This document shows, in pieces, positions 13,797 through 33,407 of a stretch of DNA of 64,000 bases. The notes below the pieces were generated by a model. It saw only the letters and a list, made by a program, of their open reading frames with translations, was not told where the DNA came from and did not search any database. Location of the stretch: the NCBI RefSeq assembly GCF_027980145.1, contig NZ_JAMZNK010000002.1, positions 1 through 64,000 of the forward strand. The letters run 5' to 3'. This stretch comes from Flavobacterium azizsancarii. Its GTDB lineage: Bacteria > Bacteroidota > Bacteroidia > Flavobacteriales > Flavobacteriaceae. The first letter of the stretch is position 1. Each line of letters opens with the position of its first letter. A program made the translations under genes and the position numbers.

Positions 13797-14543
13797 TTAC
13801 CAGTTTCCTTTTAGGCCTTCTTTTAAGGCAACATCATATTTATCTAAATCAAAACGATATAAATCCGGAGCTTTATGAGCGCCTCCTTTTCTGGATTCAT
13901 CCAGTTTAGTTAAAATATCATATCTTAGTATTTTACGATAAAAATTACCTCGATTTAGTTTTTTGCTCAAAATAGCTTCATATAATTTTTGAAGTTCCGG
14001 CATCGTAAATTTCTCAGGCAAAAGATTGTACCCAATTGGATGATTGTTTAATTGTTCGCGTAAGGTAAGCAATGCTTTATCGAAAATTGTTCTGTGATCC
14101 ATCATAAACGGAGGTAAATCTTCGATAGATTTCCACTCACAAGCCGAAGAATACTCATCGACGATCAGATTGACTTTTGAATGTTCTGCTAAAGCGTAGT
14201 AACCTATCGAAACAAAACGTTGCTTGTACCATAAATTATCATCATATTTTTCAAACGCACTTTCAGAGCGATTTAAATTTCCAAAAGTATAAAATTGCTG
14301 CAGATAGATATTTTCCGTTCCCGTTCTGTCTTTCAGGATACGAATTGCAGCATCATCGACATTTTCTTCTTTTTGAACATAACCACCCGGAAGCCCCCAT
14401 AGATCCTGATCTTTCATCTTAACGGTTAAAACCTGAAGAGTAGTTTCATGAAAACTAAAAATAACACAATCAATAGAAAGTGTCGGAATGTATGTTTTCC
14501 ACGATTCTTCAGATTGTTTTTCAAGTATTTTTTTAAATTCCAT
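13797..14543 (-). CDS. Nudix-fold transcriptional regulator (NrtR/AraR-like)
   Basis: 248 aa. The N-terminal Nudix domain (about 20-150) includes DLWGLPGGYVQKEENVDDAA. The catalytic REUXEE part of the Nudix box is replaced by RILKDRTG, so hydrolase activity is probably lost. The C-terminal domain (about 165-245) is a winged helix (FTMPELQKLYEAILSK, NRGNFYRKI, DESRKGGAHKAP), the architecture of NrtR and of the Bacteroides arabinose regulator AraR. Such proteins bind a sugar or nucleotide in the dead Nudix pocket and control nearby sugar genes. It is divergent from a GH3 beta-glucosidase gene, its likeliest target along with itself. A good promoter lies just upstream. Confidence 0.85.
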   Translation of the reverse strand: MEFKKILEKQSEESWKTYIPTLSIDCVIFSFHETTLQVLTVKMKDQDLWGLPGGYVQKEENVDDAAIRILKDRTGTENIYLQQFYTFGNLNRSESAFEKYDDNLWYKQRFVSIGYYALAEHSKVNLIVDEYSSACEWKSIEDLPPFMMDHRTIFDKALLTLREQLNNHPIGYNLLPEKFTMPELQKLYEAILSKKLNRGNFYRKILRYDILTKLDESRKGGAHKAPDLYRFDLDKYDVALKEGLKGNW

Positions 14544-14851: not shown

Positions 14852-17302
14852 ATGAAACCAAGCTTTACCAAAACTGCCAGAGTATCACTTTTGACTGCTT
14901 TAGTACTTTCAAATTTATCATGGAAAACCATTCCAAACGATGAAAACAACCCACCGCTTTTAACCATTAAGGGATTTACATTTGTTGATTCTAACAGAAA
15001 TGGGAAATTAGACATTTGGGAAGACACACGCCTTTCTGTTGATCAGCGAATTGATTCAATTATCAAACAAATGACCAATGCCGAAAAGGTAGAACTGCTT
15101 ATAGGAACAGGAATGCCCGGAATAGAAGTTTTGACAGGTCCTGTTGGAGATTCTAAGCAAGGTTTGGTTCCCGGAGCTGCCGGAGGAACGGCTTCTTTTG
15201 AGCGATTTGGAATTCCTGCGACTGTTGTTGCTGATGGACCTGCAGGTTTAAGAATTGAACCGACAAGAGAAAATGATTCAAAAACGTATTATGCAACCGC
15301 ATTTCCTGTAGGTACAGCTTTGGCATCGACCTGGAATAAAACGCTTTTAGAAGAGGTTGGAAAAGCAATGGGTAATGAGGTAAAAGAATATGGCGTTGAC
15401 GTTTTATTAGCACCGGCACTGAACATTCAAAGAAATCCTTTGAACGGAAGAAATTTCGAATACTATTCTGAAGATCCTTTGATTTCTGGAAAAACGGCGG
15501 CGGCAATAGTAAACGGAATTCAGTCGCAAGGCGTAGGAACTTCGATCAAACACTTTGCAGTTAATAATGAAGAAACCAACCGATTAACAATCAATGCGCA
15601 CGTTTCTGAAAGAGCTATTCGAGAGATATATTTAAAAGGTTTTGAAATCACGGTAAAAGAATCTCAGCCCTGGACGGTAATGTCCTCCTACAACAAATTG
15701 AATGGCACTTATACTTCTGAACGTAAAGATTTGCTAACCCAGGTTTTGAGAAACGAATGGGGCTTTAAAGGAATTGTGATGACGGACTGGTTTGGAGGTT
15801 TTGCAGGTTTTGAATCGATACAGAATGGTTCAAGTTCTGATGTAGTACAACAAATGATCGCCGGAAACGATCTTTTGATGCCAGGAATTCCAGTTCAGAA
15901 AAAAGCATTATTAGAAGCTTTGAACTCGGGAAAAATATCTCAGGAAGTGGCCAATACAAATGCAAAAAGAATTTTAGAATATATTTTTCGCACACCAACT
16001 TTCACAAAATATAAATACAGCGATAAACCGAACTTGACTAAGAATGCCGAGGTAACAAGAAATGCTGCGGCAGAAGGAATGGTTTTGCTTAAAAACACAA
16101 ATAAAGCATTGCCTTTTGCTGAAAAACAAAAAGAAGTTTCTTTATTTGGTGTTACTTCTTATGCCTGGATTACAGGCGGAACAGGAAGCGGAAGTGTGAA
16201 TAATAAACATACAGTTTCGCTTTTAGAAGGTTTGAATGCTGCGGGTTATAAATTAGACAAAGAAGTGGTTGATTTATACACACCTCACGCAGAAAAAGAA
16301 CTTGTTGCTGAAAAAGAGCGAAGAAAAATAAAAGGAATTTTGGCTTTGCCTGAAAGACTTCCTGAAATGAAAATGGACGATGCTTTTATTGCTAAAAAAG
16401 CAGCAAGTTCTGAAATCGCTTTTGTGACTTTAGGGAGAAACTCCGGAGAAGGAGGAGACAGAGTTGTGGACAATGATTTTAATCTCGCAAATGAAGAAAT
16501 TGAAATGCTGGATAAAATTTCAAAAGCTTTTCATGCAAAAGGAAAAAAAGTAGTGGTTATTTTAAATATAGGCGGTGTAATCGAAACAGCTTCATGGAAA
16601 GATAAAGTAGATGCTATTTTGTTAGCCTGGCAGCCAGGTCAGGAAGGCGGACACTCTGTTGCAGATGTAGTTTCGGGGAAAATAAATCCATCCGGAAAAC
16701 TTACTATGACTTTCCCAGTGAAATATTCTGATACACCTTCAGCTAAAAACTTCCCGGGATTTCCTGCTAATAATCCAAAAGAAGTGACGTATGAAGAAGG
16801 AGTTTATGTTGGGTATCGTTATTATAATACTTTTAATGTCAAACCATCTTATGAATTTGGCTTTGGAAGTTCGTATACTAATTTTGATTTTTCAGATGTG
16901 AAATTGAGTTCACCAACATTCAATGATAAATTAACGGTTTCAGTTACTGTAAAAAATACAGGAAAAACAGCCGGAAAAGAAGTAGTACAAATTTATCTTG
17001 CTGCACCATCAAAGTCTATTGATAAACCAAAAGAAGAATTGAAAGCTTTTGGTAAAACCAAAGAATTAAAACCGGGAGAAAGCGAAACACTAAAATTGAC
17101 TTTATCTGCAAAAGATCTTGCTTCATTTTTAGAAAATAAAAGTGCCTGGATTGCAGAAGCCGGAACGTATAAAGTTTTGGTTGGAGCTTCGTCATTAGAT
17201 ATCAAAAAGACAGCAGAATTTTCAGTAGCAAAAGAAATTACGGTCGAAAAAGTAAAGAAAGCTTTTGAGTTAGATTCAAAGTTTACAGAACTTAAACCGT
17301 AA
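14852..17302 (+). CDS. bglX: GH3 beta-glucosidase, exported
   Basis: 816 aa. An N-terminal hydrophobic stretch is followed by a short linker with FVDSNRNGKLDIWED, and then the GH3 TIM barrel (about 60-370). The barrel shows VVADGPAGLRIEP, RNPLNGRNFEYYSEDP, SIKHFAVNNEETNR and the nucleophile segment GIVMTDWFGG (Asp312). The alpha/beta sandwich domain (about 395-620) and a C-terminal fibronectin-III-like domain (from about 690, TVSVTVKNTGKTAGKEVVQIYL) complete the BglX-type architecture. It should hydrolyse terminal beta-linked glucose or a related sugar in the periplasm. It is a single gene with its own terminator, divergent from the Nudix regulator. The symbol reflects architecture; the substrate is not proven. 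Confidence 0.9.
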   Translation: MKPSFTKTARVSLLTALVLSNLSWKTIPNDENNPPLLTIKGFTFVDSNRNGKLDIWEDTRLSVDQRIDSIIKQMTNAEKVELLIGTGMPGIEVLTGPVGDSKQGLVPGAAGGTASFERFGIPATVVADGPAGLRIEPTRENDSKTYYATAFPVGTALASTWNKTLLEEVGKAMGNEVKEYGVDVLLAPALNIQRNPLNGRNFEYYSEDPLISGKTAAAIVNGIQSQGVGTSIKHFAVNNEETNRLTINAHVSERAIREIYLKGFEITVKESQPWTVMSSYNKLNGTYTSERKDLLTQVLRNEWGFKGIVMTDWFGGFAGFESIQNGSSSDVVQQMIAGNDLLMPGIPVQKKALLEALNSGKISQEVANTNAKRILEYIFRTPTFTKYKYSDKPNLTKNAEVTRNAAAEGMVLLKNTNKALPFAEKQKEVSLFGVTSYAWITGGTGSGSVNNKHTVSLLEGLNAAGYKLDKEVVDLYTPHAEKELVAEKERRKIKGILALPERLPEMKMDDAFIAKKAASSEIAFVTLGRNSGEGGDRVVDNDFNLANEEIEMLDKISKAFHAKGKKVVVILNIGGVIETASWKDKVDAILLAWQPGQEGGHSVADVVSGKINPSGKLTMTFPVKYSDTPSAKNFPGFPANNPKEVTYEEGVYVGYRYYNTFNVKPSYEFGFGSSYTNFDFSDVKLSSPTFNDKLTVSVTVKNTGKTAGKEVVQIYLAAPSKSIDKPKEELKAFGKTKELKPGESETLKLTLSAKDLASFLENKSAWIAEAGTYKVLVGASSLDIKKTAEFSVAKEITVEKVKKAFELDSKFTELKP

Positions 17303-20662: not shown

Positions 20663-21964
20663 TTATTTCAAAGCTTTTACTTTATGTCCGTAGATTCCAA
20701 ATGATAGAATGATAACAAAACACAACAAGGGAATAATATATCCGGATTGAATATCATCATGTTTCATATCGATTAGAGTTCCCATTCCGTATGGCAGGAT
20801 TGCTCCGCCAACAATCGACATTACTAACCATGAAGAACCTGTTTCTGTATTTGATTTTAAGCCCACAATACCCAAAGAGAATATCGTTGGAAACATAATC
20901 GACATAAAGAATCCGATTCCGCCAAGCGCATAAATTACATATATTCCTGTTCCGTAAATGGCTACCATACACAATAAAATACTGCAAACGCAATAGATCG
21001 AAAGCAAGACATAATCTTTAACGAATTTTAGAAAGAATGTCCCAATAAAACGTCCTGCCATAAACAGAAAACCATAAATACCAAGGTAATATCCCGCTGT
21101 TTTTTCGTCTAATCCTGCGCCTTGCTGCGCAATTCTAATAAAGAAACTTGTGATACAAACTTGTGCTCCAACATAGAAAAACTGAGCTACAACTGCCCAG
21201 CTTAAATGACGAAATTTTAATACAGAGAAGAATCCCGGTTTTACTTCAACCTCTGCATGTTGTGCTTTCATCGAAGGCAAATGCATGAAATAGAATAAGA
21301 TTGCCACCAAAACAAGTACAGTTCCCAAAATAATATAAGGTAACTTTACAGATGAAGCTTCTTCTAATAAATAAGCAGCCTTTGTTGCATCTGGCATTGC
21401 AGCCATTTGTTCCGGTGTATGATTGGTTCCCGAAAGAATAAATAAAGAACCCACAATTGGTGCGACCATCGCAGCCAAACCATTAAAAGAAGCTGCTAAG
21501 TTCAATCGTTTTGATGAGGATTCCGGAGGTCCTAAAATCGCAGCATACGGATTTGCGCTGGTTTCCAGAATAGTTAGCCCGCAGCCAATTACAAATAAAG
21601 CAAACAAAAACAATTCGTAAGTTCTGGTGTTTGCTGCAGGAACAAATAGAAAAGCGCCTGCCGCGAAAACCAATAAGCCGGTAATAATACTGTTTTTGTA
21701 ACCAAAGCGTTTGATTAACATTCCGGCAGGAATTGCCATAATAAAATAGGCGAAAAATACTGCCGTATCAATCAAAGTCGATTGACGATTGTTTAATTCA
21801 CAAGCCTTTTTTAAGTGCGGAATTAAAATAGAATCCAGATTGTGAGCCATTCCCCAAAGGAAAAATAAACTTGTAATTAATATAAAAGGCAAAAGGTATT
21901 TTGTTCCTGTTCCTTTTTCTGTAGCGACTTCGTGTTGGTCGCCAGTTTGGTTGGTTATTTGCAT
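20663..21964 (-). CDS. fucP: L-fucose:H+ symporter-like MFS permease
   Basis: 433 aa, 12 predicted TM segments. Family marks are LFFLWGMAHNLDSILIPHLKK in TM1 (first 20 shown in part), AYFIMAIPAGMLIKRFGYK, and ETSANPYAAILGP, the FucP/FGHS signature. FucP carries L-fucose, and relatives carry other hexoses or L-rhamnose-like sugars, into the cytoplasm with protons. It is the last gene of the leftward operon that begins at 28392. The neighbouring fuconolactonase-type and FAH-type genes support a deoxy-sugar substrate. The symbol is given by family; substrate is inferred. Confidence 0.85.
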   Translation of the reverse strand: MQITNQTGDQHEVATEKGTGTKYLLPFILITSLFFLWGMAHNLDSILIPHLKKACELNNRQSTLIDTAVFFAYFIMAIPAGMLIKRFGYKNSIITGLLVFAAGAFLFVPAANTRTYELFLFALFVIGCGLTILETSANPYAAILGPPESSSKRLNLAASFNGLAAMVAPIVGSLFILSGTNHTPEQMAAMPDATKAAYLLEEASSVKLPYIILGTVLVLVAILFYFMHLPSMKAQHAEVEVKPGFFSVLKFRHLSWAVVAQFFYVGAQVCITSFFIRIAQQGAGLDEKTAGYYLGIYGFLFMAGRFIGTFFLKFVKDYVLLSIYCVCSILLCMVAIYGTGIYVIYALGGIGFFMSIMFPTIFSLGIVGLKSNTETGSSWLVMSIVGGAILPYGMGTLIDMKHDDIQSGYIIPLLCFVIILSFGIYGHKVKALK

Positions 21965-22053: not shown

Positions 22054-22500
22054 TCATAAAATATTTTTTTTCACCAATAATAGGTGATCACAAACGAGAA
22101 CGACTTCACCTTTTTGATTGAGAATTTCTACGTGTTCAGTTACAGTTCCCATATCCGGTTTTTTGGCTTCGCCTTTTTCTGAGATCGTGATTTCAGAATG
22201 GATGGTATCGCCAATGTGCACAGGTTTTACAAATCGCATTCTGTCATATCCTTTAGAAAAAGCTTCCGGATTAATTTCAGATGCGGTCAGGCCAATGCCA
22301 ATGCTAAAAACCATAGTTCCGTGCGCGATACGTTGACCAAAAGGTTGTGTTTTGCACCATTCCTCATCCATATGATGCGGGAAAAAGTCGCCTGTATGAC
22401 CCGCGTGAACCACAAAATCGGTTTCGGTAATCGTTCTGCCAAAAGTGACGCGTTTATCGCCAATGTGATAATCTTCGAAAAATGTTGATTTGAAATACAT
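22054..22500 (-). CDS. MaoC-like hot-dog dehydratase/hydratase
   Basis: 148 aa from the ATG at 22500. The frame extends to a TTG at 22545, but the ATG starts the domain directly ([16 protein letters not shown]). It is a single hot-dog fold with the hydratase-2 motif region [14 protein letters not shown] (the Asp/His pair of MaoC enzymes) and [15 protein letters not shown]. Characterised relatives add or remove water on CoA thioesters. Position in an operon with two CoA-transferases suggests its substrate is the CoA ester they produce. It lies 75 bp after the Gfo/Idh gene and 89 bp before the FucP gene. Confidence 0.85.
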
Positions 22501-22575: not shown

Positions 22576-23643
22576 TTATAATTCGCTAAGAGCAACCCCT
22601 CCATTTTTGTTACTGATATAACAGGCTTCAACTACCTTCATCGTGTCGAGAACATCCTGAACACTGGTTAAAAGTTTAGTATCAGAACCTTCTTTAAAAC
22701 GCATTAGGTTGGACATTGTTCCTATGAAAGCTTCGGGAAACCACGAACCCTCGAGTTCGATTTTTTTCCATTCGTATTGCCCTTTTTCGTTTGCTAAAGC
22801 ATATTCAAATTCATCAGGCAAACCATCGGGATAATTCATTAATAATCCCATTTTAGCTTTTATCGCACCTTTTGTTCCTTCCCATTTGATGTAGCTTTCC
22901 TCATGTTTAGGGCCAAAATGATGATCGTGATTTGTATTAATCACAACATGTTTGTCTTCTCCATAATCTAAAATGATGGTAGAACGAGAAGAGGATAGTT
23001 TTTTTAGCGGATGTTTGGCCGTTTTTGCCATGACACTCTTCGGATTTCCCAAAAACGATCTGATGCAATCGATATAGTGAACACTATGAAAAAGAATTTC
23101 TAATCTGGGATGTTCCTTAATCAGCGGAAACAACTCCCAAGGTGTGTTTACAGTAACTTTAAATTCAAAATCATACAAGTCGCCAATAATTCCTTCGTTG
23201 ATTAAATGTCTTGCAGTGCTTACGAATGACGCAAAACGCAATTGAAAATTAATTGCCGCGACCAGATTTTTTCGTTCGCAAACCGCAACAATTTCACGTG
23301 CCTGAGCGAGATCATTTCCCATAGGTTTCTGAATCAAAACTGCAGCGCCATCAGGTAATTGTTCTAATATTTCGATGTATTGATCAGGCAGGACTGTAAT
23401 GTCATAAACAGCATTTGATGGCGCGTTTTTAACTGCATCAGCTACATTTTCAAAAACATGGCTAATCTTAAATTGTTTCGCCAGATCATGCGCTTTAGAA
23501 ATCGTTCTGTTGGTAATACCAAAAACAGTAAAACCGGCCATTTCATAAGCAGGTAAATGCGCATCTTTAACGATTCCGCTTGCTCCGATGATGATAATCG
23601 GTTGGTTCGTTTCAGGTAATTTTGGTTGATATGGAATATTCAT
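22576..23643 (-). CDS. Gfo/Idh/MocA-family oxidoreductase
   Basis: 355 aa. The N-terminal Rossmann domain has IIIGASGIVKDAHLPAY. The usual EKP motif is present as LIQKPMGNDLAQA, with Gln in place of Glu. The C-terminal alpha/beta domain contains FHSVHYIDCIRSFLG, which supplies the catalytic His/Asp region. Family members oxidise or reduce sugars, sugar acids or inositols with NAD(P). It is cytoplasmic and sits 93 bp after the binding-protein gene in the leftward operon. The gap holds CTAAG-type repeats. The substrate is unknown; a sugar acid or lactone intermediate is plausible. Confidence 0.85.
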   Translation of the reverse strand: MNIPYQPKLPETNQPIIIIGASGIVKDAHLPAYEMAGFTVFGITNRTISKAHDLAKQFKISHVFENVADAVKNAPSNAVYDITVLPDQYIEILEQLPDGAAVLIQKPMGNDLAQAREIVAVCERKNLVAAINFQLRFASFVSTARHLINEGIIGDLYDFEFKVTVNTPWELFPLIKEHPRLEILFHSVHYIDCIRSFLGNPKSVMAKTAKHPLKKLSSSRSTIILDYGEDKHVVINTNHDHHFGPKHEESYIKWEGTKGAIKAKMGLLMNYPDGLPDEFEYALANEKGQYEWKKIELEGSWFPEAFIGTMSNLMRFKEGSDTKLLTSVQDVLDTMKVVEACYISNKNGGVALSEL

Positions 23644-23736: not shown

Positions 23737-24963
23737 TCAATGCGTTAATTTTTCAATCATATGCTGAGTTTCTTCTAATAGTTTTTCTGAGGAAATATCA
23801 CTTTCAATCGCTTTCAAAACCATTTGATCTATTAACCCGGTTACTTTAGGCCAAATAGGGGTTTGAGGTAAAGTCAAAGCATTTTCATGTAACATCTCAA
23901 GCTTATGATAAAACGGAATGATATTGTTGATTTCAGGGTCATTCCATGTTGATTTTCTACAGCCAATTCCGCCTTCTATAGTCAATAGTTTATCACTTTC
24001 CGGTGAAGTAGCAAATCTCAAAAAGTCGTAAGCCAGTTTTTGATGTTTACTTCCGGAACCAATGGTATACAACCAATACACATTCAAAGAAGCCGTTTTA
24101 TGGTTAAGGTCAGAAGGTAATTCCGTAATATCAACTTTGCCTTTTACTTTCGATTCATCGATCACTTCACACATCGAAGCAAATCCAAACCAGTTGATGG
24201 CCATTGCGGCTTGCCCTTCGGCGAAAGCCATTCCTGCTTCAACCGAGCCAAATTCTTTCGACTTGGGATGAACGGCATTTTTATTGTTTACAATTTTTCG
24301 ATAAAAATCTAAAGCTTCAATTGCCACCGGATTATTGATGTTAATTTGATTTTGATCGTTTAATAAAGATTCGCCACGAGTCCACAACTGCAGGCAGAAA
24401 TCAAAAACCATATTGTGACCGTCTGGATAATTGGCAAAAATACAGCCGTACAGATTTTGTTCGGGACGGTTAAAAAACGTGGCTATTTCTACAAATTGTT
24501 GCCATGTTTTGGGTGGATTTAATTCATAACCCAATTGCTTTTTGAAGTTTTCTTTCTCAATATTATTTTCGAATAGATCTTTTCTAAAAATCAAACATTC
24601 AGGACCGTCATGAAATGGTAAACCGTAAATTCCGTTATTAACTTGCTGTAAATTCAATAAAGATTGCGACCAGCCTTCAGGATAATCCTGAGGTGGGTTG
24701 TGATTGATAGAGGAAGTTAAATCCAGAACCGCTTTTTCATTGGCAGCATCAAAAATCCAATCAGTATTCAGGTGCGCAATATCCCATTTTCCGTTTTTCA
24801 GACCTTGATTTGTAATGGTTTCTTCATAAATATCATGCAATTCCAGTGGAATCATTTCAGCTTCAATCTGAACATTATTTTTGATGCAAAACAAATCCCA
24901 TAGTTTTTGCAGCGTACTTTCGAAAGGATCAAATTTGCGGACAGCGATTCTTATTTTCTCCAT
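23737..24963 (-). CDS. Substrate-binding-protein fold without signal peptide (family 1 SBP)
   Basis: 408 aa. The sequence has the family-1 extracellular solute-binding architecture: an N-terminal strand [29 protein letters not shown], the hinge-region INHNPPQDYPEGW, YGLPFHDGPECLIFRKDLF, PPKTWQQFVEIATFF, and MAFAEGQAAMAINWFGF. Yet it starts directly at the first beta strand with no signal peptide or lipobox, and no ABC permease or ATPase is nearby. Its start codon overlaps the preceding CoA-transferase stop by 1 nt (TAATG), so it is translated with it. It is therefore probably a cytoplasmic ligand-binding protein or enzyme built on an SBP fold. A similar protein opens the operon. Confidence 0.85.
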   Translation of the reverse strand: MEKIRIAVRKFDPFESTLQKLWDLFCIKNNVQIEAEMIPLELHDIYEETITNQGLKNGKWDIAHLNTDWIFDAANEKAVLDLTSSINHNPPQDYPEGWSQSLLNLQQVNNGIYGLPFHDGPECLIFRKDLFENNIEKENFKKQLGYELNPPKTWQQFVEIATFFNRPEQNLYGCIFANYPDGHNMVFDFCLQLWTRGESLLNDQNQININNPVAIEALDFYRKIVNNKNAVHPKSKEFGSVEAGMAFAEGQAAMAINWFGFASMCEVIDESKVKGKVDITELPSDLNHKTASLNVYWLYTIGSGSKHQKLAYDFLRFATSPESDKLLTIEGGIGCRKSTWNDPEINNIIPFYHKLEMLHENALTLPQTPIWPKVTGLIDQMVLKAIESDISSEKLLEETQHMIEKLTH

Positions 24964-26102
24964 TATATTGCTATAAATTCTTTAATAATTTGTTCGTTAT
25001 CCTGTCCTAATTTTGGAGAACCTTTGCCTGAAACTAAATACTCTCCGTCAATTTTAATAGGACATCTTGTCGTTTCATACGAATAACCGTCGAGCATTGT
25101 TACTTTTTGCGTAAAGTCTAAAACCTTAAATCCTTCTTCTGCAAAAAGCTCCTGATAATTTAAAACTCCGGCACACCAAATATCTGCTGGTTCTAAAATA
25201 TTCAACCAAAAATTAGTATCCTGAGTTTGTAAATGTGTTGCGAGAATATTTTTTATTTCATCTCTTAAAGTGAATTTATTTTCAGGAAATGCCAAAAGCG
25301 CATCGCATTTTAAAAGTGAAGCGAGAACCGGAATAGATCCCATTGCCAATGCCAGAAAGCCATTATTGGTTTTGTAAATTCCATAAGGTGCGCCTAAATA
25401 AGCGTGAGCATTATTCGTTTTAGTTCGAACAGGTAATTCACCGCCATCATTAAAATAAGTAGTAATCGTTTCAAACTGAAAATCAAAAGCCGATTCTAAC
25501 ATGCTGACCTGAACCGAAGCGCCAATAGTATGAGTTGCTTTTCTATACAAAGCCGCCAAAATTCCCTGAGCCAAATGTGCACCTGCCAACATATCGACAA
25601 TCGATAAACCCATTGGTACGGGACCATCATCCTGATTGCCGCTTAGCCACGTTAAAGCCGTTAAGGATTGTAATAGCAAATCCTGTCCTGGTAAATCTTT
25701 TAAATCCGGATGATCGCCAAAACCTGAAATTGAGGCATAAATTACATTCGGATTTATCGCTTTAACATCGTCATAACTTAAACCAATGCGTTCCATAACT
25801 CCGGGTCTGAAATTATGCATCACGACATCGGCTTTAGCCAATAGTTTTTTTAATTTTTCAAGTTCCTCAGGTTCTTTGAAATCAATGGTAAACGACTCTT
25901 TGTTCCTGTTAATGGTATGAAAAACAGAAGATTCACCGTTCATGATCAAGTCTGATGTGTATAAGGTTCTGCAAATATCGCCTGTTCCCGGTTTTTCAAT
26001 TTTTATCACGCGTGCACCCAGATCAGCCAACCGCAAACTTGCAGAAGGACCAGATAGAAACTGGCTAAAATCTACTATTAAATAATCTTCTAATGGTTTC
26101 AT
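24963..26102 (-). CDS. CaiB/BaiF family (class III) CoA-transferase, copy 1
   Basis: 379 aa. The N-terminal [23 protein letters not shown] and [11 protein letters not shown] are the family's nucleotide/CoA part. [24 protein letters not shown] and SISGFGD follow. The catalytic Asp is present at position 170 in [14 protein letters not shown], matching Asp169 of formyl-CoA and CaiB transferases. Such enzymes move CoA between carboxylic acids and form interlocked dimers. It overlaps copy 2 by 4 bp (ATGA), and both are similar over their whole length, so a heteromeric pair is possible. The substrate is unknown; an organic or sugar acid is expected from context. Confidence 0.92.
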
Positions 26103-27247
26103 GCGTTGTGTAAAAATTGTTCGTGTATTTTTAAATTGTCTTCTCCAACTTTTGGAGCTGCTTTTGAGCTTACTAAAATTTTTCCGTCAAGCTGAATTGG
26201 ACTTCTTGTTGTGACCATAGTTTCTCCATCTGAATTTTTTACGGTTTGTTTCAATTTCAATTCCTTTACAAAAGGCTGACTGTCGAGTTCTTCATAATTG
26301 AATACTTTTCCGCACCAGATTCCTTCTTTTTGAAGTACTTTCAGCCAATAATCAGCTGTTTGAGTGGCTAATTTTTCACTTAATAAAGTTCTGATTTCAT
26401 CCCTATGTGTAAACCAATGTGGTTTGTCTGCGTACTTATTTAAGTCTAATCCTAACGCATTTCCAATAAAAAGCAAATCGCCCATGGCCAAAGAAAGAAA
26501 ACCGTCCTGAGTTTGATAGACACCATAAGGAGCACTGAGAAATGCATGTGCACTTCCTTTGATATCGCCTCTTTCCGGTAATTGTCCGCCATCATTCATG
26601 AAAGAAGTAATGGCTTCAAACTGTACATCCAAAACCGATTCTAACAAACTTACTTCGACCAAAACCCCTTTTCCGGTTTTGGCTCTTTTAAGTAATGCTG
26701 CCAAAATTCCCTGTACAAAATGATTACCGCACATCAAATCTGCTACAGCCAAACCAAACGGAACAGGTTCCTGACTTTTTCGACCGCTTAACCAACTCAA
26801 TCCGGATAAGGATTGCAATAATAAATCTTGTCCCGGTTTTTTTGCCCACGGACCAATATTCCCATAACCCGTTATAGTTCCGTAAATTATTTTTGGGTTG
26901 ATTGCTAATGTTTCAGTAAAGTCCAATCCAATTTTCTCCATCACGCCAGGTCTGAAATTATGTGTCATAATATCAGCCTGGGCGATCAGTTTTTTGATTA
27001 AAGTTAAATCTTCAGGGTTTTTAAGATCTGCTGCAAAAGATTCTTTATTTCGGTTAATGGTATGAAATAACAAACTGCTATCATCAACAAAAAGATCTTT
27101 GATACTTAATTGTCTGCAAGCTTCGCCTTTTACAGGACGTTCGATTTTGATGACTCTTGCACCTAAATCGGCCAATTTTAATCCCGCTGAAGGCCCTGCC
27201 AAAAACTGGCAGAATTCCAATACAACTAATCCTTCAAGTGGTCTCAT
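26099..27247 (-). CDS. CaiB/BaiF family (class III) CoA-transferase, copy 2
   Basis: 382 aa, a paralog of the adjacent copy with the same landmarks: [82 protein letters not shown] and catalytic Asp170 in [14 protein letters not shown]. Both copies keep the nucleophile, so both could be active. The start overlaps the preceding SBP-fold gene by 4 bp (ATGA). Tandem retained copies suggest an obligate pair or two related substrates. Confidence 0.92.
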
Positions 27248-28392
27248 GTTGTTTGCAGGTTTAAAGATTTTGTATAAAGCGAATTCATGACTTCTAAAAC
27301 CAATTCTTCATCTCCGCCATTCATCAGATAATCACGAACGACATCGCCTGCATGATCTTGAAAATACATATGTCCGGAATATCTTGGGCGTAAAAAAGCA
27401 CGTTCTAAAGCAGGTAAAGTATTCTTGAAATAATCATGCGTTACAGCATTAATTCGGTCACTTTTCCAGGCTTGTAAATGTCCCGGTTGTCCGCCATTAT
27501 CAGCAAATATGTTTTGTTGAACGTACGACGATCCGGTAAATTCAGCATAGGCAATTGCTTCCGGAATATGTTTGCTAAAAGAAGAAACGGCTAAACCGGT
27601 TCCGCCCAGCGAACTAATCATCGGGTTATTATTCAAACGAACCAAATCATAAAAATGAAGTAAATTTTTGCTGTAACCCGTTCTCGAATAATTCGAATAT
27701 CCGTAAGCAAAAGGGCAGTACGCAATCTCATCAGAATTGACCATAGCTTCGTAAACCTGAATTGGATTTCTGTTAAAATTCGCCGGATCGATTAATTGTG
27801 CTAATTCACGAAACATCTGCAAAGCCTTTTTTCCTATTTCTACTGAGATTACTTTTTCATCAGACTGAAACGGAGCTTCACCCAAACTACAGCAATACAT
27901 ATAAAAACTCATTAAAACATCAACCGGAATTCCTGCGAAAGCGACCAATCCTTTTTTTGCCAAAGCCAATACATCATCATAAGTCTGTGGTACTTTTAGA
28001 CCTTGTTTTTCAAGAATATCCAGACGGGCAGCTGCAACCGGAGTCGCTGCATCAATAGGTAAAGCCCATAATTTATGGCCAAAAACATAACTTCCGTAAG
28101 AACGTCCGACGGTATTAAGTTCCTGATCTTTTATATAGTCAGCAGAAAGGTGATCGGAGAGAGGTAGGATAGCGTTTGTGTGCGCTCCAAAACCTGTCCA
28201 GGGATGATCGATAACCAATAAGTCGAATCTTTTTGCCAAATCTTCAATCGAAGCATCAGCAAATTCTTGTAGACTTCTTTTCTTCCACGTAATTTCAATA
28301 TTCGGATGTAGTTCTGTAAAACGTTGTGCTGTAGCAACCATTGGTAATAAACCTCTCGTGTGATTCCAGGTTATCCCTTTTAGTATCGTCAT
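27244..28392 (-). CDS. Substrate-binding-protein fold without signal peptide, operon leader
   Basis: 382 aa. SBP-like features are GITWNHTRGLLPMVATAQRF, FDLLVIDHPWTGFGAHT, FGHKLWALPIDAATPVAAAR, LKVPQTYDDVLALAKK, IAYCPFAYGYSNYSR and SSLGGTGLAVSSFSKH. There is no signal peptide: the fold begins at residue 3, and the upstream in-frame codons are hydrophilic (KSSPLNYNK). It is distantly similar to the second SBP-fold protein of the operon, which it brackets together with the two CoA-transferases. It is first in the operon with a good promoter about 65-90 bp upstream. A cytoplasmic sugar-acid-binding role is inferred; an enzyme activity is not excluded. Confidence 0.82.
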   Translation of the reverse strand: MTILKGITWNHTRGLLPMVATAQRFTELHPNIEITWKKRSLQEFADASIEDLAKRFDLLVIDHPWTGFGAHTNAILPLSDHLSADYIKDQELNTVGRSYGSYVFGHKLWALPIDAATPVAAARLDILEKQGLKVPQTYDDVLALAKKGLVAFAGIPVDVLMSFYMYCCSLGEAPFQSDEKVISVEIGKKALQMFRELAQLIDPANFNRNPIQVYEAMVNSDEIAYCPFAYGYSNYSRTGYSKNLLHFYDLVRLNNNPMISSLGGTGLAVSSFSKHIPEAIAYAEFTGSSYVQQNIFADNGGQPGHLQAWKSDRINAVTHDYFKNTLPALERAFLRPRYSGHMYFQDHAGDVVRDYLMNGGDEELVLEVMNSLYTKSLNLQTT

Positions 28393-28720: not shown

Positions 28721-29485
28721 ATGTTTTCATTACAAAATAAAAAAGCTGTAGTAACAGGAGGAGGTAGCGGAATTGGCAGAGCCATAGCAACCCTTTTTGC
28801 TAAACAAGGAGCAGAAGTACATATCATAGATCTCACGATCGAAAGTGCTCAGGAAGCAGTTGATGACATCAGGAATTTAGGTGGTAATATTTTTTCGCAT
28901 GCTTGTAATGTGGCGAGTCAAAAAGAAGTTCTGGCAACATTTGAAGCCATTGGCAATATTCATATTCTGATCAATAATGCCGGAATTGCTCATGTTGGTA
29001 AAGTTGACACAACATCAGAAGCTGATTTTGATCGTGTGATGGAGGTCAATGTAAAAGGAGTTTACAATTGTTTGTTCGCAGCTATTCCACAATTCAGGCT
29101 TTCAAAAGGCGGAGTTATTATCAATATGGCATCAATTGCCGCGTGGGTGGGTATTCCGGATCGATTTGCTTATTCTACCGCTAAAGGCGCTGTTATGGCC
29201 ATGACTTTATCTGTTGCAAAAGATTATATCAAAGATAATATTCGTTGCAATTCTATTTCGCCTGCAAGGGTTCATACGCCATTTGTAGATGGTTTTATCT
29301 CGAAAAACTACGCTGGAAAAGAAGCCGAAATGTTCGAAAAATTATCGCAATCACAGCCTATTGGACGTATGGGAAAACCGGACGAAATTGCCGCTTTGGC
29401 TTTGTATTTATGCAGTGACGAAGCAGGATTTATAACAGGAAGCGATTACCCAATCGACGGAGGATTTATTAAATTAAATAACTAG
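28721..29485 (+). CDS. SDR oxidoreductase, 2-keto-3-deoxy-sugar-acid dehydrogenase-like
   Basis: 254 aa, classical SDR. Cofactor motif TGGGSGIGRA near residue 12, NNAGIAHVG, and active-site YSTAKGAV (YxxxK) with upstream Ser in MASIAAW. The C-terminus has GRMGKPDEIAALALYL and GSDYPIDGGF. It is close in layout to 2-keto-3-deoxy-L-fuconate/L-rhamnonate 4-dehydrogenases, which make the diketo acid that FAH-family hydrolases cleave. The FAH gene is next, which supports that role. It is the first gene of the rightward operon; the exact substrate is not provable from sequence. Confidence 0.85.
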   Translation: MFSLQNKKAVVTGGGSGIGRAIATLFAKQGAEVHIIDLTIESAQEAVDDIRNLGGNIFSHACNVASQKEVLATFEAIGNIHILINNAGIAHVGKVDTTSEADFDRVMEVNVKGVYNCLFAAIPQFRLSKGGVIINMASIAAWVGIPDRFAYSTAKGAVMAMTLSVAKDYIKDNIRCNSISPARVHTPFVDGFISKNYAGKEAEMFEKLSQSQPIGRMGKPDEIAALALYLCSDEAGFITGSDYPIDGGFIKLNN

Positions 29486-29681: not shown

Positions 29682-30536
29682 ATGAAATTAATACGTTTTG
29701 GAGAAATCGGAAAAGAAAAACCTGGAGTTTTAATTGGTGAAAAAAGATATGATGTTTCGTCGATTGTTTCAGACTTTAACGAAAGTTTTTTTGAAGAAAA
29801 CGGTTTAGAAAAATTACAAAAAGCATTAGACAGCAATCCAACTTTACCAGAAGTGGATGCGAATGTACGTTTAGGATCTCCGGTGGCAAGACCATCAAAA
29901 ATAATATGTATTGGTTTAAATTATGTAGATCACTGCGTAGAAACCGGCGCACCAATTCCAACAGAACCTATCATCTTTTTTAAATCAACCACTTCTTTAT
30001 GCGGTCCTGATGATGATGTTATTATTCCTAAAAATAGTGTAAAAACAGATTGGGAAGTAGAGTTAGCATTTGTTGTAGGTAAAAAAGCAAGTTATGTCGA
30101 AGAAGCTGATGCTCTTGACTATGTTGCCGGATATGCTGTGTTGAATGATTATAGCGAAAGAGAATTTCAGATTGAGCGTGGCGGACAATGGGCTAAAGGA
30201 AAAGGCTGTGATACATTTGCGCCTCTTGGACCCTTTTTGGCAACAAAAGACGAAGTAAAAGATGTCGATAATTTGTCGATGTGGCTGAGCGTAAACGGTA
30301 AAAAGTTTCAGGATAGTAACACGTTAAATCTGGTTTTCAAAATCCCTTATTTATTACATTATTTAAGCCAGTTTATGACCTTGCTTCCCGGCGATATCAT
30401 CAGTACAGGAACGCCTCCGGGAGTTGGATTAGGAATTAAACCGGATCCTGTTTACCTTAAACCGGGTGATGTTGTCGAGCTTGGAATCGAAGGATTGGGA
30501 AGTAGTAAACAAACTGCTGTGGCATACAAAAAGTAA
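29682..30536 (+). CDS. FAH-family hydrolase, likely 2,4-diketo-3-deoxy-sugar-acid hydrolase
   Basis: 284 aa. The fumarylacetoacetase-like fold is recognised by KIICIGLNYVDHCVETG, the metal-binding DWEVELAFVVGKKA (Glu cluster), GYAVLNDYSEREFQ, and STGTPPGVGLGIKP. Family members with this neighbourhood split 2,4-diketo-3-deoxy-L-fuconate or -rhamnonate into pyruvate and lactate, the last step of oxidative deoxy-sugar catabolism. The start is the ATG at 29682 after an A-run leader. The Zn-dehydrogenase gene follows after 19 bp. Confidence 0.87.
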   Translation: MKLIRFGEIGKEKPGVLIGEKRYDVSSIVSDFNESFFEENGLEKLQKALDSNPTLPEVDANVRLGSPVARPSKIICIGLNYVDHCVETGAPIPTEPIIFFKSTTSLCGPDDDVIIPKNSVKTDWEVELAFVVGKKASYVEEADALDYVAGYAVLNDYSEREFQIERGGQWAKGKGCDTFAPLGPFLATKDEVKDVDNLSMWLSVNGKKFQDSNTLNLVFKIPYLLHYLSQFMTLLPGDIISTGTPPGVGLGIKPDPVYLKPGDVVELGIEGLGSSKQTAVAYKK

Positions 30537-30555
30537 TCTAAAAACAAAATTGAAG

Positions 30556-31569
30556 ATGAAATTTATTGTATGTGAGAAACCACAGGAATTCAAATTAAAA
30601 GAGAAAGAAATACCCGAACCAAAAGAAGGCGAAGTATTATTAAAAATAAAAAGAATAGGGATTTGCGGAACTGATATTCATGCTTTTGGCGGAACCCAGC
30701 CTTATTTTGAATATCCAAGAATTTTAGGTCATGAACTGGCTGCAGAATACATTAAAGGAAATGCCAAAGGTTTTGAACCAGGTGATAAAGTTACTTTTAT
30801 CCCATATTTCAATTGTGGGAAATGTGTGGCTTGCAGAAATGGCTTAACCAATTGTTGTGTCAACATTAAAGTATTTGGAGTACATATTGATGGCGGAATG
30901 GCCGAATATGTGACAATTCCGGAGCAGTATTTATTGCACGGTCAGGGATTAGATTACGATCAGTTGGCTTTGGTTGAACCCTTGGCAATTGCGGCACACG
31001 GAGTTCGAAGAGCGGCCGTAGGACACAATGATACTGTTTTGGTAATGGGCGCGGGACCAATTGGAATTGGATTGATTCAGTTTGCTAAAATTGCAGGAGC
31101 AAAAGTGATCGTAATGGATATCAACGAATACCGATTGGGTTTTTGTAAAAATGAACTAAATGCCGATGCAACGATAAATCCGTTAAACGAAAATGTTACT
31201 GCAAAACTGGCCGAAATTACCAATGGCGATATGGCCAATGTGGTTATTGATGCCACAGGAAACAGGAATGTCATGAATGATGCTTTCAATTACATTTCGC
31301 ATGGTGGAAGATTTGTTTTGGTTGGACTTCAAAAAGGCGAATTAACGTTCAGTCATCCTGATTTTCATAAAAGAGAATCGACTTTGATGAGCAGCAGAAA
31401 TGCAACGATTCAGGATTTTGAATATGTAATGGAATGTCTTAAAAATGGCAAAATAGATCCTAAAAAGTACATTACTCATAGAACCAGTTTTAGTGATATG
31501 ATTGAAAATTTTGGACAATTAATTGACACGAAAAATAATGTCATTAAAGCATTAATAGAAATAGATTAA
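30556..31569 (+). CDS. Zn-dependent medium-chain alcohol/polyol dehydrogenase
   Basis: 337 aa from the ATG at 30556. The open frame extends back to 30466 inside the FAH gene, but the ATG fits the domain start (MKFIVCEKP). Catalytic zinc ligands lie in IGICGTDIHAFGG and ILGHELAAE; the structural zinc lobe is CGKCVACRNGLTNCC. The Rossmann motif is VMGAGPIGIGLIQFAK. It groups with threonine/L-gulonate/sugar-alcohol dehydrogenases (COG1063). It could oxidise L-fucose, L-rhamnose, L-galactonate or a similar polyol. It is the third gene of the rightward operon. Confidence 0.88.
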   Translation: MKFIVCEKPQEFKLKEKEIPEPKEGEVLLKIKRIGICGTDIHAFGGTQPYFEYPRILGHELAAEYIKGNAKGFEPGDKVTFIPYFNCGKCVACRNGLTNCCVNIKVFGVHIDGGMAEYVTIPEQYLLHGQGLDYDQLALVEPLAIAAHGVRRAAVGHNDTVLVMGAGPIGIGLIQFAKIAGAKVIVMDINEYRLGFCKNELNADATINPLNENVTAKLAEITNGDMANVVIDATGNRNVMNDAFNYISHGGRFVLVGLQKGELTFSHPDFHKRESTLMSSRNATIQDFEYVMECLKNGKIDPKKYITHRTSFSDMIENFGQLIDTKNNVIKALIEID

Positions 31570-31772: not shown

Positions 31773-32570
31773 ATGGATTTAAATTTAAAAGGTAAAATTG
31801 TTGTCGTGTCCGGTTCGGCGGGCAAAGAAGGAAGTATAGGAGAAACGATTATCAAGAGATTGGCAGATGAAGGTGCAATTCCGGTACTTGTTGATAGAAA
31901 TGACAGAGGTTTTGGTTATGCCGAAGAACTTCAAAAAAGAAATATAGATTCATTATTCGTCAAAACAGATGTTACCGATCCTGTTGAAATGGAAAATGCT
32001 GTTAAAAAAATCGTTGCAAAATACGGTAGAATTGATGTTGTTATCAATAACGTGGGCGTGAATGACGGAGCTGGTTTAGATTCGAGTTATGATGATTTCA
32101 TGAATTCGTTGAAACTGAATGTGGTGAGTTATTTTTTATTGACAAAATATGCGCTTCCATACCTAAAAGAATCGAGAGGAAATATCTTAAATATTGGTTC
32201 AAAAGTAGCTTTAACAGGACAGGGCGGAACTTCTGGTTACGCTGCTGCCAAAGGTGGAGTTTTAGGATTAACCAGAGAATGGGCAGTCGATTTGATCGAA
32301 TTTGGAATTCGTTCGAATGCCATTATTATAGCAGAAAGTTTTACGCCGGCTTATGATGATTGGTTGAAAACACTTCCGGATGGCGAAACTGTTTTGAATA
32401 AAATCAACAAAAGTATTCCGTTTGAAAGCCGAATGACCAAGACAGAAGAAATTGCAGATACAGCACTTTTTATCATTTCAGATCGTTCGTCGCATACTAC
32501 AGGACAATTTGTTTTTGTTGATGGTGGCTACGTTCATTTAGATCGTGCACTAATTAGCGATGTAAATTAG
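31773..32570 (+). CDS. SDR oxidoreductase, sugar dehydrogenase-like
   Basis: 265 aa. The cofactor loop is divergent, VSGSAGKEGSIGETI, followed by LVDRNDRGFGYAEEL, NNVGVNDGAG, the catalytic Ser in NIGSKVALTG and Tyr/Lys in YAAAKGGVLG, and FVFVDGGYVH near the end. Its place directly before a fuconolactonase-type gene (6-bp gap) suggests an L-fucose or L-rhamnose 1-dehydrogenase giving the lactone. That is inference; an enzyme of similar fold earlier in the operon probably works later in the same path. Confidence 0.85.
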   Translation: MDLNLKGKIVVVSGSAGKEGSIGETIIKRLADEGAIPVLVDRNDRGFGYAEELQKRNIDSLFVKTDVTDPVEMENAVKKIVAKYGRIDVVINNVGVNDGAGLDSSYDDFMNSLKLNVVSYFLLTKYALPYLKESRGNILNIGSKVALTGQGGTSGYAAAKGGVLGLTREWAVDLIEFGIRSNAIIIAESFTPAYDDWLKTLPDGETVLNKINKSIPFESRMTKTEEIADTALFIISDRSSHTTGQFVFVDGGYVHLDRALISDVN

Positions 32571-32576
32571 TATAAG

Positions 32577-33407
32577 ATGGGAAACCGAATTGATTCACAT
32601 CAGCATTTTTGGAAATTTGATCCCGTAAGAGACAGCTGGATTGACGATTCGATGCAAAAGATCCAAAGAGATTTTTTGCCTGAAGATCTTTTGCCTTTAT
32701 TGCAACAAAATCAATTTTCAGGTTGCGTAGCCGTTCATGCCAGTCAGTCTGAAGAGGAAACTGAGTTTCTTTTAGATTTAGCTTCAAAAAATGATTTTAT
32801 AAAAGGAATCGTGGGTTGGGTTGATTTAAGAGCTTCAAATATCGAAGAACGACTAAATTATTTTTCTTCTTTTAAAAACATAAAAGGATTTCGTCATGTT
32901 GTTCAGGGCGAAGCCGATGATTTTATGTTTAGAGAAGATTTTCGTAACGGAATTTCAGCTTTAAAAATGTTCAATTATACCTACGATATTTTAATTTTTC
33001 ATCGTCAATTATCCGCTGCAATAAATTTGGTAAAACATTTTCCCGATCAGCCTTTTGTAATCGATCATATCGCAAAACCGGATATAAAATCAGGTGATAT
33101 TGCATCATGGAAGAAAGGAATTGAGGAAATTGTAAAATACGAAAATGTAAGCTGTAAAATCTCAGGAATGGTCACAGAAGCTCATTGGAACTCCTGGAAA
33201 CCATCTGATCTAAAACCGTATCTAGATGTTATTTTCGAAAATTTCACTGCCAATAAATTAATGTTCGGATCAGATTGGCCAGTTTTGAATGTCGCCTCCG
33301 ATTATTCTGAAGTAGTACAAACCTTAGAAGATTATATGTCACAACTTTCTACAGAAGATCAGAATAAGATTTGGTTTGAGAATGCGAGTTCTTTTTATAA
33401 GTTATAA
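32577..33407 (+). CDS. Amidohydrolase-family lactonase, L-fuconolactonase-like
   Basis: 276 aa (COG3618). The metal motif HxH is DSHQHFWKF at the N-terminus. Further marks are VAVHASQSEEETEFLLDLA, GIVGWVDLR, FVIDHIAKPDI, SCKISGMVTEA and MFGSDWPVLN (catalytic Asp). Characterised relatives open L-fucono-1,5-lactone or L-rhamnono-1,4-lactone. It is the last gene of the rightward operon. With the preceding SDR it gives the first two steps of oxidative deoxy-hexose catabolism. Confidence 0.9.
   Translation: MGNRIDSHQHFWKFDPVRDSWIDDSMQKIQRDFLPEDLLPLLQQNQFSGCVAVHASQSEEETEFLLDLASKNDFIKGIVGWVDLRASNIEERLNYFSSFKNIKGFRHVVQGEADDFMFREDFRNGISALKMFNYTYDILIFHRQLSAAINLVKHFPDQPFVIDHIAKPDIKSGDIASWKKGIEEIVKYENVSCKISGMVTEAHWNSWKPSDLKPYLDVIFENFTANKLMFGSDWPVLNVASDYSEVVQTLEDYMSQLSTEDQNKIWFENASSFYKL

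Follow-up and report, generated by a model that had tools for sequence, protein, structure and literature searches.

The window, a stretch of 64,000 nucleotides from Flavobacterium azizsancarii, carries a compact run of four genes in the order SBPa, CaiBa, CaiBb and SBPb, with overlaps of 4, 4 and 1 bases (Table 1). An earlier note on this DNA had described the same coupled order, two proteins of solute-binding protein (SBP) fold placed around two CoA-transferases. Downstream of SBPb follow, in this order, genes for a Gfo/Idh protein, MaoC and FucP.

Table 1. Genes of the SBP-CaiB block and of the divergent operon beside it
Feature	Position	Strand	Basis
SBPa, SBP_bac_1 family, no export signal, 382 aa	28392-27244	-	Pfam, hydropathy measure, AF2 fold
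CaiBa, class III CoA-transferase, 382 aa, Asp170 kept	27247-26099	-	Pfam, NCBIfam, alignment
CaiBb, class III CoA-transferase and paralogue of CaiBa, 379 aa, retains Asp170	26102-24963	-	Pfam, NCBIfam, alignment
SBPb, second member of the SBP_bac_1 family, no export signal, 408 aa	24963-23737	-	Pfam, hydropathy measure, AF2 fold
Gfo/Idh/MocA oxidoreductase, same block	22576..23643	-	Profile match, block conservation
MaoC-type (R)-specific hydratase/dehydratase of 148 aa, inherited together with SBPa	22054..22500	-	Profile, genome co-occurrence
FucP-type MFS symporter, likely monosaccharide importer of the operon	20663..21964	-	TIGR00885, 365.7 bits (cut-off 280.4); conserved in block
SDR1, probable 2-keto-3-deoxy-6-deoxyaldonate dehydrogenase, divergent operon	28721..29485	+	Role assigned from context
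FAH-family hydrolase	29682..30536	+	Best NCBIfam match 2,4-didehydro-3-deoxy-L-rhamnonate hydrolase, 378 bits (below cut-off 500)
Zinc alcohol dehydrogenase	30529..31569	+	Profile match
L-fucose dehydrogenase (SDR2)	31773..32570	+	NCBIfam, 351.9 bits (above cut-off 300)
Amidohydrolase, probable L-fuconolactonase	32577..33407	+	255.9 bits (below cut-off 400)

Both outer proteins belong to the Pfam family SBP_bac_1 (37.4 bits for SBPa and 97.5 bits for SBPb; cut-off 26 bits) and have the two-lobed SBP fold in their AF2 models. The model of SBPa (pLDDT 76.8) resembles sugar-binding SBPs (Z 25.8, 341 residues, rmsd 4.5), and that of SBPb (pLDDT 91.5) matches the trehalose/maltose-binding protein 1eu8 (Z 45.2, 392 residues, rmsd 2.1). 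Fold searches with the two models listed only transport SBPs, a result that is compatible with SBP-fold enzymes too. When aligned with sugar-binding SBPs, SBPa keeps their Asp and Arg-Pro. The Arg-Pro motif is lost in SBPb, which may therefore not bind sugar in the usual way. Across 23 SBPa sequences with 30-65% identity to the window protein 39 columns are invariant, among them H11, R13, D62, H63, D114, Q302, R335 and R337.

The N-termini of both SBPs were examined with a measure of hydropathy and uncharged runs, which is not a trained signal predictor; nine conventional ABC binding proteins encoded in related loci served as controls. Near the N-terminus, the highest hydropathy over 11 residues was at most 1.44 in 104 SBPa reading frames and 1.41 in 87 SBPb reading frames, against 1.65-3.22 in the controls. 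The longest N-terminal run without charged or polar residues was at most 9 in SBPa and 12 in SBPb, against 14-21 in the controls. A loose lipobox pattern occurred in two of the 104 SBPa frames, one of which (L120) has no long hydrophobic run. By this simple measure SBPa and SBPb carry neither an export signal nor a lipobox, as the earlier note had claimed. The note had also reasoned that an in-frame export signal further upstream would contradict its reading, but the window SBPs have no upstream ATG, GTG or TTG start in frame and a hidden signal can be dismissed. We infer from their sequences that both proteins are located in the cytosol. The lack of an ABC permease, originally noticed within the 64 kb, extends to the whole genome: no cognate sugar permease was found in the 5.8 Mb assembly, its sole BPD_transp_1 permease is MetI, and it holds no SBP_bac_1 gene besides SBPa and SBPb. 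Since export signal, further SBP_bac_1 proteins and sugar permease are all missing, a role in import was rejected for this genome.

The association of the SBPs with the CoA-transferases is widely conserved, and none of the results that the earlier note had named as refuting its reading turned up. A search for the four-gene order in Bacteroidota, which the earlier note had proposed, was evaluated on 80 related loci, the best kept of 100 found. The order was recovered in 79 of them, and the remaining one is a contig that is cut off; chance gene order is thereby excluded. Two loci on cut contigs, L078 and L110, were counted neither for nor against linkage. SBPa homologues extend to Alphaproteobacteria, Variovorax and Streptomyces. 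Of about 145 plasmid records, a set heavily weighted to Sinorhizobium (90), 141 have SBPa and CaiB in one place, adjacent or nearly adjacent. Streptomyces ITFR-6 falls outside the 141, yet its CaiB is less than 3 kb from SBPa. In Alphaproteobacteria the order is the opposite, CaiB then SBPa, and the genes usually still overlap.

SBPa was present in 19 of 395 Bacteroidota genomes. All 19 had two CoA_transf_3 matches, compared with only 5 of the other 376 (E <=1e-20, up to four candidates scored per genome). Scoring every candidate in six genomes, five of the 19 together with G025, again gave two each. A strict four-protein complex is disfavoured because no SBPb was found in 6 of the 19 genomes, because SBPa lies away from the CaiB pair in G025 (about 11 kb) and G342 (about 60 kb), and because in Microvirga SBPa is coupled to a UxuA-type (mannonate) dehydratase with no CaiB within the 19-kb stretch. 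At one further locus, L128, SBPa stands without CaiB among genes which, from reading their sequences, we take to be RhaI/RhaB/RhaD-like.

CaiBa and CaiBb match CoA_transf_3 over their full length (311 and 292 bits), and all NCBIfam specificity models that they matched scored far below their cut-offs. The catalytic Asp170 which the earlier note had seen in both enzymes is aligned with an Asp in all 38 CaiBs compared. In a midpoint-rooted tree of 38 sequences the two proteins, products of adjacent paralogous genes, come out as sister clades; they may form one heteromer. A fusion of SBP with CaiB was not seen: open frames matching SBPa were no longer than 443 aa, and an 860-aa frame of Azospirillum contains a CoA_transf_3 domain only.

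The protein encoded further downstream has a MaoC_dehydratas domain (75.3 bits, cut-off 27). Among 56 genomes, hand-chosen rather than random, MaoC was present in 18 of the 20 with SBPa and in none of the 36 without, a co-inheritance which supports a role for MaoC, as the earlier note had proposed. The two SBPa genomes without MaoC (G164 and G239) have a crotonase in the locus. In G263 FucP, Gfo/Idh and the fucose operon are kept while SBPa, CaiBa, CaiBb, SBPb and MaoC are absent together.

Judged by sequence, the flanking genes point to oxidation of L-fucose. FucP and L-fucose dehydrogenase are the fucose genes of the neighbourhood that exceed their cut-offs. The divergent fucose operon lies upstream of the module in 52 of 67 loci with enough flank and is missing in 15, including all four of Pedobacter/Desertivirga. 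Four acids had been suggested as ligands; the pointer to L-fucose leaves aceric acid and galactonate, listed beside rhamnonate and fuconate, as less fitting. A search for an L-fuconate dehydratase in the genome gave two MR_MLE_C matches above the cut-off, which resemble MenC and Ala-Glu epimerase and each score under the NCBIfam cut-off, and a third weak match; one IlvD-type and one UxaA-type gene lie elsewhere in the genome. S. meliloti carries, some 10 kb away from its CaiB-SBPa pair, a complete fucose-type cluster with an annotated L-fuconate dehydratase, and in Pararhizobium such a dehydratase and the pair belong to the same cluster.

The reading that we tentatively prefer, with confidence a little short of even, is that cytosolic SBPs bind an acid derived from a 6-deoxyhexose and partner a class III CoA-transferase, with MaoC or a crotonase acting on the resulting thioester. 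FucP would import the sugar. SBPa and SBPb would stay in the cytosol, bind a carboxylated product of the breakdown of a 6-deoxyhexose, most likely L-fucose, and work with the CoA-transferase encoded next to them, most simply as its substrate-binding partner. CaiBa/CaiBb would load CoA onto the sugar acid by an aspartyl-CoA route through Asp170, after which MaoC, replaced by crotonase in some lineages, would add or remove water on the CoA thioester. The direct basis of this proposal is the linkage, the lack of export signals and of a sugar ABC importer, the joint inheritance of SBPa with CaiB and MaoC, and the fucose neighbours; from these we infer the ligand, the physical contact, the reaction and the order of reactions. 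Several observations count against it. To our knowledge the canonical L-fucose pathway needs no CoA, and S. meliloti has the full pathway in the same cluster; furthermore, G263 lacks the module although it has the fucose operon, and 15 of the 67 loci show the reverse, a module but no operon. The SBPa genes that are unlinked from CaiB (G025, G342) or have none nearby (Microvirga), the 6 genomes in which SBPb was not found, and the loss of Arg-Pro in SBPb weigh against it as well.

A serious but less probable explanation is that SBPa (and SBPb) are themselves enzymes acting on the 6-deoxyhexose or its acid, CaiB and MaoC belonging to the pathway without SBP being their subunit. Cytosolic enzymes with an SBP fold exist, for example thiaminase I and MqnA. 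The invariant SBPa columns could be catalytic, and SBPa occurs without CaiB at L128 and beside the dehydratase gene of Microvirga. However, invariant residues in the cleft are equally expected of a protein that binds a single ligand, and the CaiB pair accompanies SBPa in every one of the 19 genomes, including G342, and also in G025, even where the genes are unlinked.

Quite unlikely, in our judgement, is a more specific proposal in which SBP, CaiB and MaoC together make up a CoA-dependent dehydratase for 6-deoxy-sugar acids, a substitute for a sugar-acid dehydratase of the enolase or UxaA type. SBP would capture L-fuconate or a relative, CaiB would make the CoA thioester, MaoC or crotonase would eliminate water across carbons 2 and 3, and CaiB would then hand on the CoA, whose role would be catalytic. 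The surroundings of SDR1 favour this idea: at 32 SDR1 places in 30 genomes a UxaA-type gene lies within 4 kb in 16 and SBPa within 10 kb in 6, and the two sets do not overlap. Counting against it are the other ten places, which have neither neighbour, namely those of G263, G239, G138, G195, G325, G207, G443, G183, G342 and G447, the last with a UxaA-type gene about 7 kb from SDR1. Moreover, a single genus supplies five of the six module places, and for this reason the lack of overlap does not count as independent evidence. S. meliloti and Pararhizobium, which have both the pair and an annotated L-fuconate dehydratase, also speak against the proposal, and together with G263 they weaken the simpler idea of a module that merely stands in for a missing L-fuconate dehydratase.

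It is more doubtful again that the SBPs are cytosolic sensors or buffers, which would keep the free 6-deoxyhexose or the acid made from it bound and would regulate or protect the pathway without catalysing a step. SBP-type folds do serve as ligand sensors, as in the effector domain of LysR regulators, and a sugar-binding fold without an export signal would suit such a task. Pfam profiles, however, detected no DNA-binding or signalling domain on SBPa or SBPb, and the tight coupling of SBPa to CaiB in either gene order and in several phyla is better explained by a partner subunit than by a buffer. Very improbable is an ordinary importer part, exported without a recognisable signal or serving a permease elsewhere. 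SBP_bac_1 membership and the sugar ABC importers of the alphaproteobacterial clusters would agree with it, but those importers have signal-bearing SBPs of their own; MetI is the only permease of its type found here, and most Bacteroidota loci have FucP or RhaT symporters. Hardly credible, finally, is the view that the SBPs are left over from an ABC importer operon gained by horizontal transfer and lie beside CaiB by chance. It is conceivable because Bacteroidota rarely use sugar ABC importers, but relics would decay, whereas SBPa is 82-95% identical across 76 Flavobacterium-type loci and has CaiB as its neighbour in several phyla, with either gene coming first.

The whole module or some of its parts are found in Bacteroidota, Proteobacteria, Streptomyces and haloarchaea. 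The database records consulted here label proteins of this family as 'extracellular solute-binding protein' or 'ABC transporter substrate-binding protein'; if one conserved branch instead acts in the cytosol alongside a CoA-transferase, these labels are wrong. If the preferred reading, a cytosolic SBP partnered with a CoA-transferase, is true, sugar acids would enter CoA metabolism by a new route, which could be tested in soil bacteria that are easy to grow.

No description of an SBP-CaiB pair was found in the open-licence papers searched. The joint inheritance of these genes beside those for L-fucose use points to an apparently undescribed metabolic module. We know of no solute-binding partner in described class III CoA-transferase systems, nor of a CoA-transferase, MaoC or cytosolic SBP in the described oxidative (non-phosphorylating) L-fucose pathway. 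The first three enzymes of that pathway are named in PMC11378808; what the flanks here share with it are genes for a fucose dehydrogenase, a lactonase-like amidohydrolase, an SDR and an FAH hydrolase. PMC8407117 on S. meliloti concerns other CoA-transferases.

With the SBPs of ABC importers of the trehalose/maltose type (1eu8, T. maritima MalE3, SmoF) the present proteins share fold and sequence family, SBPa also the Asp and Arg-Pro, the latter missing in SBPb. They differ in having no signal peptide by the measure used and no sugar permease that we could find, and in being co-inherited with CoA-transferases. CaiBa and CaiBb share the CoA_transf_3 family and the catalytic Asp with class III CoA-transferases such as YfdE and succinate-hydroxymethylglutarate CoA-transferase. 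Two-subunit members of the class, the benzylsuccinate and succinyl-CoA:L-malate CoA-transferases, likewise have two paralogous adjacent genes, and precedents for heteromers are named in PMC5592240. The same paper describes the methylaspartate cycle of haloarchaea, in which a mesaconate CoA-transferase is followed by a MaoC-family mesaconyl-CoA hydratase acting on the thioester. This system resembles the present one in combining a class III CoA-transferase with a MaoC-family hydratase, but substrate and pathway are different, the transferase is homodimeric and no SBP is mentioned in the passages of PMC5592240 consulted. Phenyllactate CoA-transferase, again according to PMC5592240, works in a complex with a dehydratase that acts on the CoA ester; there the partner is a (de)hydratase, whereas the candidate partner here is a solute-binding protein.

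The four genes described in the earlier note, which encode two solute-binding proteins of the SBP_bac_1 family (SBPa and SBPb) and, between them, two class III CoA-transferases (CaiBa and CaiBb), were present with the coordinates and overlaps claimed for them. The overlaps at the SBPa/CaiBa, CaiBa/CaiBb and CaiBb/SBPb junctions comprise 4, 4 and 1 bases. A Gfo/Idh oxidoreductase, a MaoC-type hydratase and a FucP-type symporter follow in this order 3' of SBPb. The divergent plus-strand operon (fucose operon) encodes an SDR, an FAH hydrolase, a zinc dehydrogenase, an L-fucose dehydrogenase scoring above the NCBIfam cut-off and a fuconolactonase-like amidohydrolase scoring below it.

Coordinates of features in the window and in compared loci (L numbers)
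Feature	Coordinates	Strand	Remarks
SBPa	28392-27244	minus	
CaiBa	27247-26099	minus	
CaiBb	26102-24963	minus	
SBPb	24963-23737	minus	
SDR1	28721-29485	plus	in the fucose operon
Nudix-related regulator	13797-14543		NrtR/AraR-type winged helix domain
Large ORF	14852-17302		divergent from the regulator gene; glycoside hydrolase by appearance
Polysaccharide-utilisation region	33898-61915		rhamnogalacturonan-type by the label given in this analysis; GH28-like and beta-helix proteins (both named from sequence), second Gfo/Idh, SSF symporter, rhamnosidase 6-hairpin, GH130-like, GH2, GH106, SASA esterase, DUF5703
Beta-helix protein	35990-38497		weak similarity (42-48 bits) to short ORFs (~110-133 aa) that other genomes carry close to SDR1; C-terminal end perhaps a fused mutarotase-like part
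SBPa homologue, Microvirga ossetica plasmid	L147:7988-10173		
Second SBPa paralogue of S. meliloti, on another plasmid	L148:7796-10915		with CaiB, crotonase and ABC importer
Locus of G263, a genome of the same genus	L182:5286-12916		

Among the best 80 of 100 relatives located in genome contigs (76 loci of Flavobacterium type and four from Pedobacter or Desertivirga) the order SBPa-CaiBa-CaiBb-SBPb was kept in 79, and the contig of the 80th stops early. One of the 79, from Flavobacteriaceae bacterium CRH (L016), has SBPb in two pieces, which a frameshift or faulty sequencing might explain. All seven genes recurred in the same order in two more genomes (L124, L125); three loci (L112, L123, L126) showed the same order with MaoC and no FucP match. 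SBPa homologues occurred in 146 plasmid records with the window protein as query and in 145 with the S. meliloti protein, 90 being from Sinorhizobium. A joined CaiB-SBPa query was at least 80% covered by one place in 141 plasmid records, so that the two genes are adjacent or nearly so in these. In the alphaproteobacteria CaiB lies upstream of SBPa, mostly with a 4-base overlap; adjacency is thus known in both orders. The conserved linkage of SBP and CaiB genes on which the earlier note depended therefore exists in other genomes. The SBPb relatives topping the plasmid list came from five records (38-54% identity), one of them haloarchaeal.

In a set of 395 Bacteroidota genomes SBPa was found in 19, CoA_transf_3 in 87 and SBPb in 13, every SBPb genome also carrying SBPa. 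With at most four candidates scored per genome, two CoA_transf_3 matches (E up to 1e-20) were present in all 19 SBPa genomes and in only five others; six genomes in which every candidate was scored again gave two each. Scored by presence, the association of SBPa with CoA_transf_3 had a Fisher p of 6e-14, uncorrected for relatedness. The role proposed for the downstream MaoC gained support, since its orthologue (E up to 1e-30) tracked SBPa in 18 of 20 SBPa genomes versus none of 36 others, all hand-picked. The two SBPa genomes without it (G164, G239) encoded a crotonase at the locus, together with an aldehyde dehydrogenase. Genes of these two kinds adjoin SBPa in place of MaoC and Gfo/Idh in L127, L130 and L109. 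G263 retained FucP, Gfo/Idh and the fucose operon, and lacked SBPa, CaiBa, CaiBb, SBPb and MaoC altogether. From this joint presence and absence the five genes behave as one unit, from which Gfo/Idh and FucP are separable.

Both binding proteins appear to remain inside the cell. By a simple hydropathy measure no export signal was seen in 104 SBPa ORFs (at most 1.44) or 87 SBPb ORFs (at most 1.41), versus 1.65-3.22 in a control set of nine conventional binding proteins encoded in related loci. The longest uncharged run separated them further (at most 9 and 12 residues versus 14-21). The signal-less character claimed previously is thus borne out, and the reported lack of an ABC permease in 64 kb extends to the genome: the sole BPD_transp_1 permease of the 5.8 Mb assembly is MetI, and a third SBP_bac_1 protein was not found there. 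Alphaproteobacterial relatives do have sugar ABC importers in the cluster, accompanied by a separate signal-bearing SBP.

The gene neighbourhood points to fucose. The fucose operon lay upstream of SBPa in 52 of 67 loci with enough flank and was missing in 15, including all four from Pedobacter and Desertivirga. On S. meliloti pSymB the CaiB-SBPa pair is about 10 kb from a fucose-type cluster (amidohydrolase, ABC importer, rhamnose mutarotase-family protein, Gfo/Idh, MaoC, SDR, FAH, annotated L-fuconate dehydratase), and in Pararhizobium pair and cluster are contiguous. In Persicobacter, Croceibacterium and Halostagnicola, genes of the module have annotated alpha-L-fucosidases close by. In a second branch (a Sinorhizobium paralogue and Variovorax) their place is taken by crotonase, aldose epimerase and further genes for sugar oxidation. 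Fucose can also be broken down by a pathway that needs no CoA.

We infer that a cytosolic binding protein would serve a class III CoA-transferase whose substrate would be an acid formed when a 6-deoxyhexose is broken down, and that MaoC or crotonase would act on the resulting thioester. A serious rival is that SBPa is a stand-alone SBP-fold enzyme. SBPa lies about 11 kb (G025) and 60 kb (G342) from the CaiB pair, its G342 neighbours resembling rhamnose isomerase, kinase and aldolase (named by reading sequences alone). The Microvirga homologue overlaps a UxuA-type mannonate dehydratase gene, a second such gene is annotated upstream, and translated search revealed no CaiB in the 19-kb stretch. 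Six of the 19 SBPa genomes gave no SBPb match, and G263 keeps a fucose operon without the module. These observations together keep the rival alive.

The component families of the module are all known already. In full-text searches of an open-access library we found no description of signal-less SBPs co-inherited with CoA-transferases and a hydratase. CaiBa and CaiBb reached no known specificity cut-off; the catalytic Asp noted earlier in both is kept in 38 of 38 aligned CaiBs. When 38 sequences were placed in a midpoint-rooted tree, read here for its topology alone, the two came out as sister clades, as a duplication inside Bacteroidota would give. The AF2 model of SBPa (pLDDT 76.8) matched sugar-binding SBPs (Z 25.8, 341 residues, rmsd 4.5) and that of SBPb (pLDDT 91.5) matched 1eu8 (Z 45.2, 392 residues, rmsd 2.1). 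SBPa has 39 invariant columns in 23 diverse sequences, and in a profile alignment its D62 and R335-P336 align with the Asp and Arg-Pro of sugar binders; the Arg-Pro motif is absent from SBPb. According to PMC5592240, class III transferases occur both as heteromers and together with dehydratases, and the order of reactions proposed for the module, CaiB then MaoC, is already characterised in the methylaspartate cycle.
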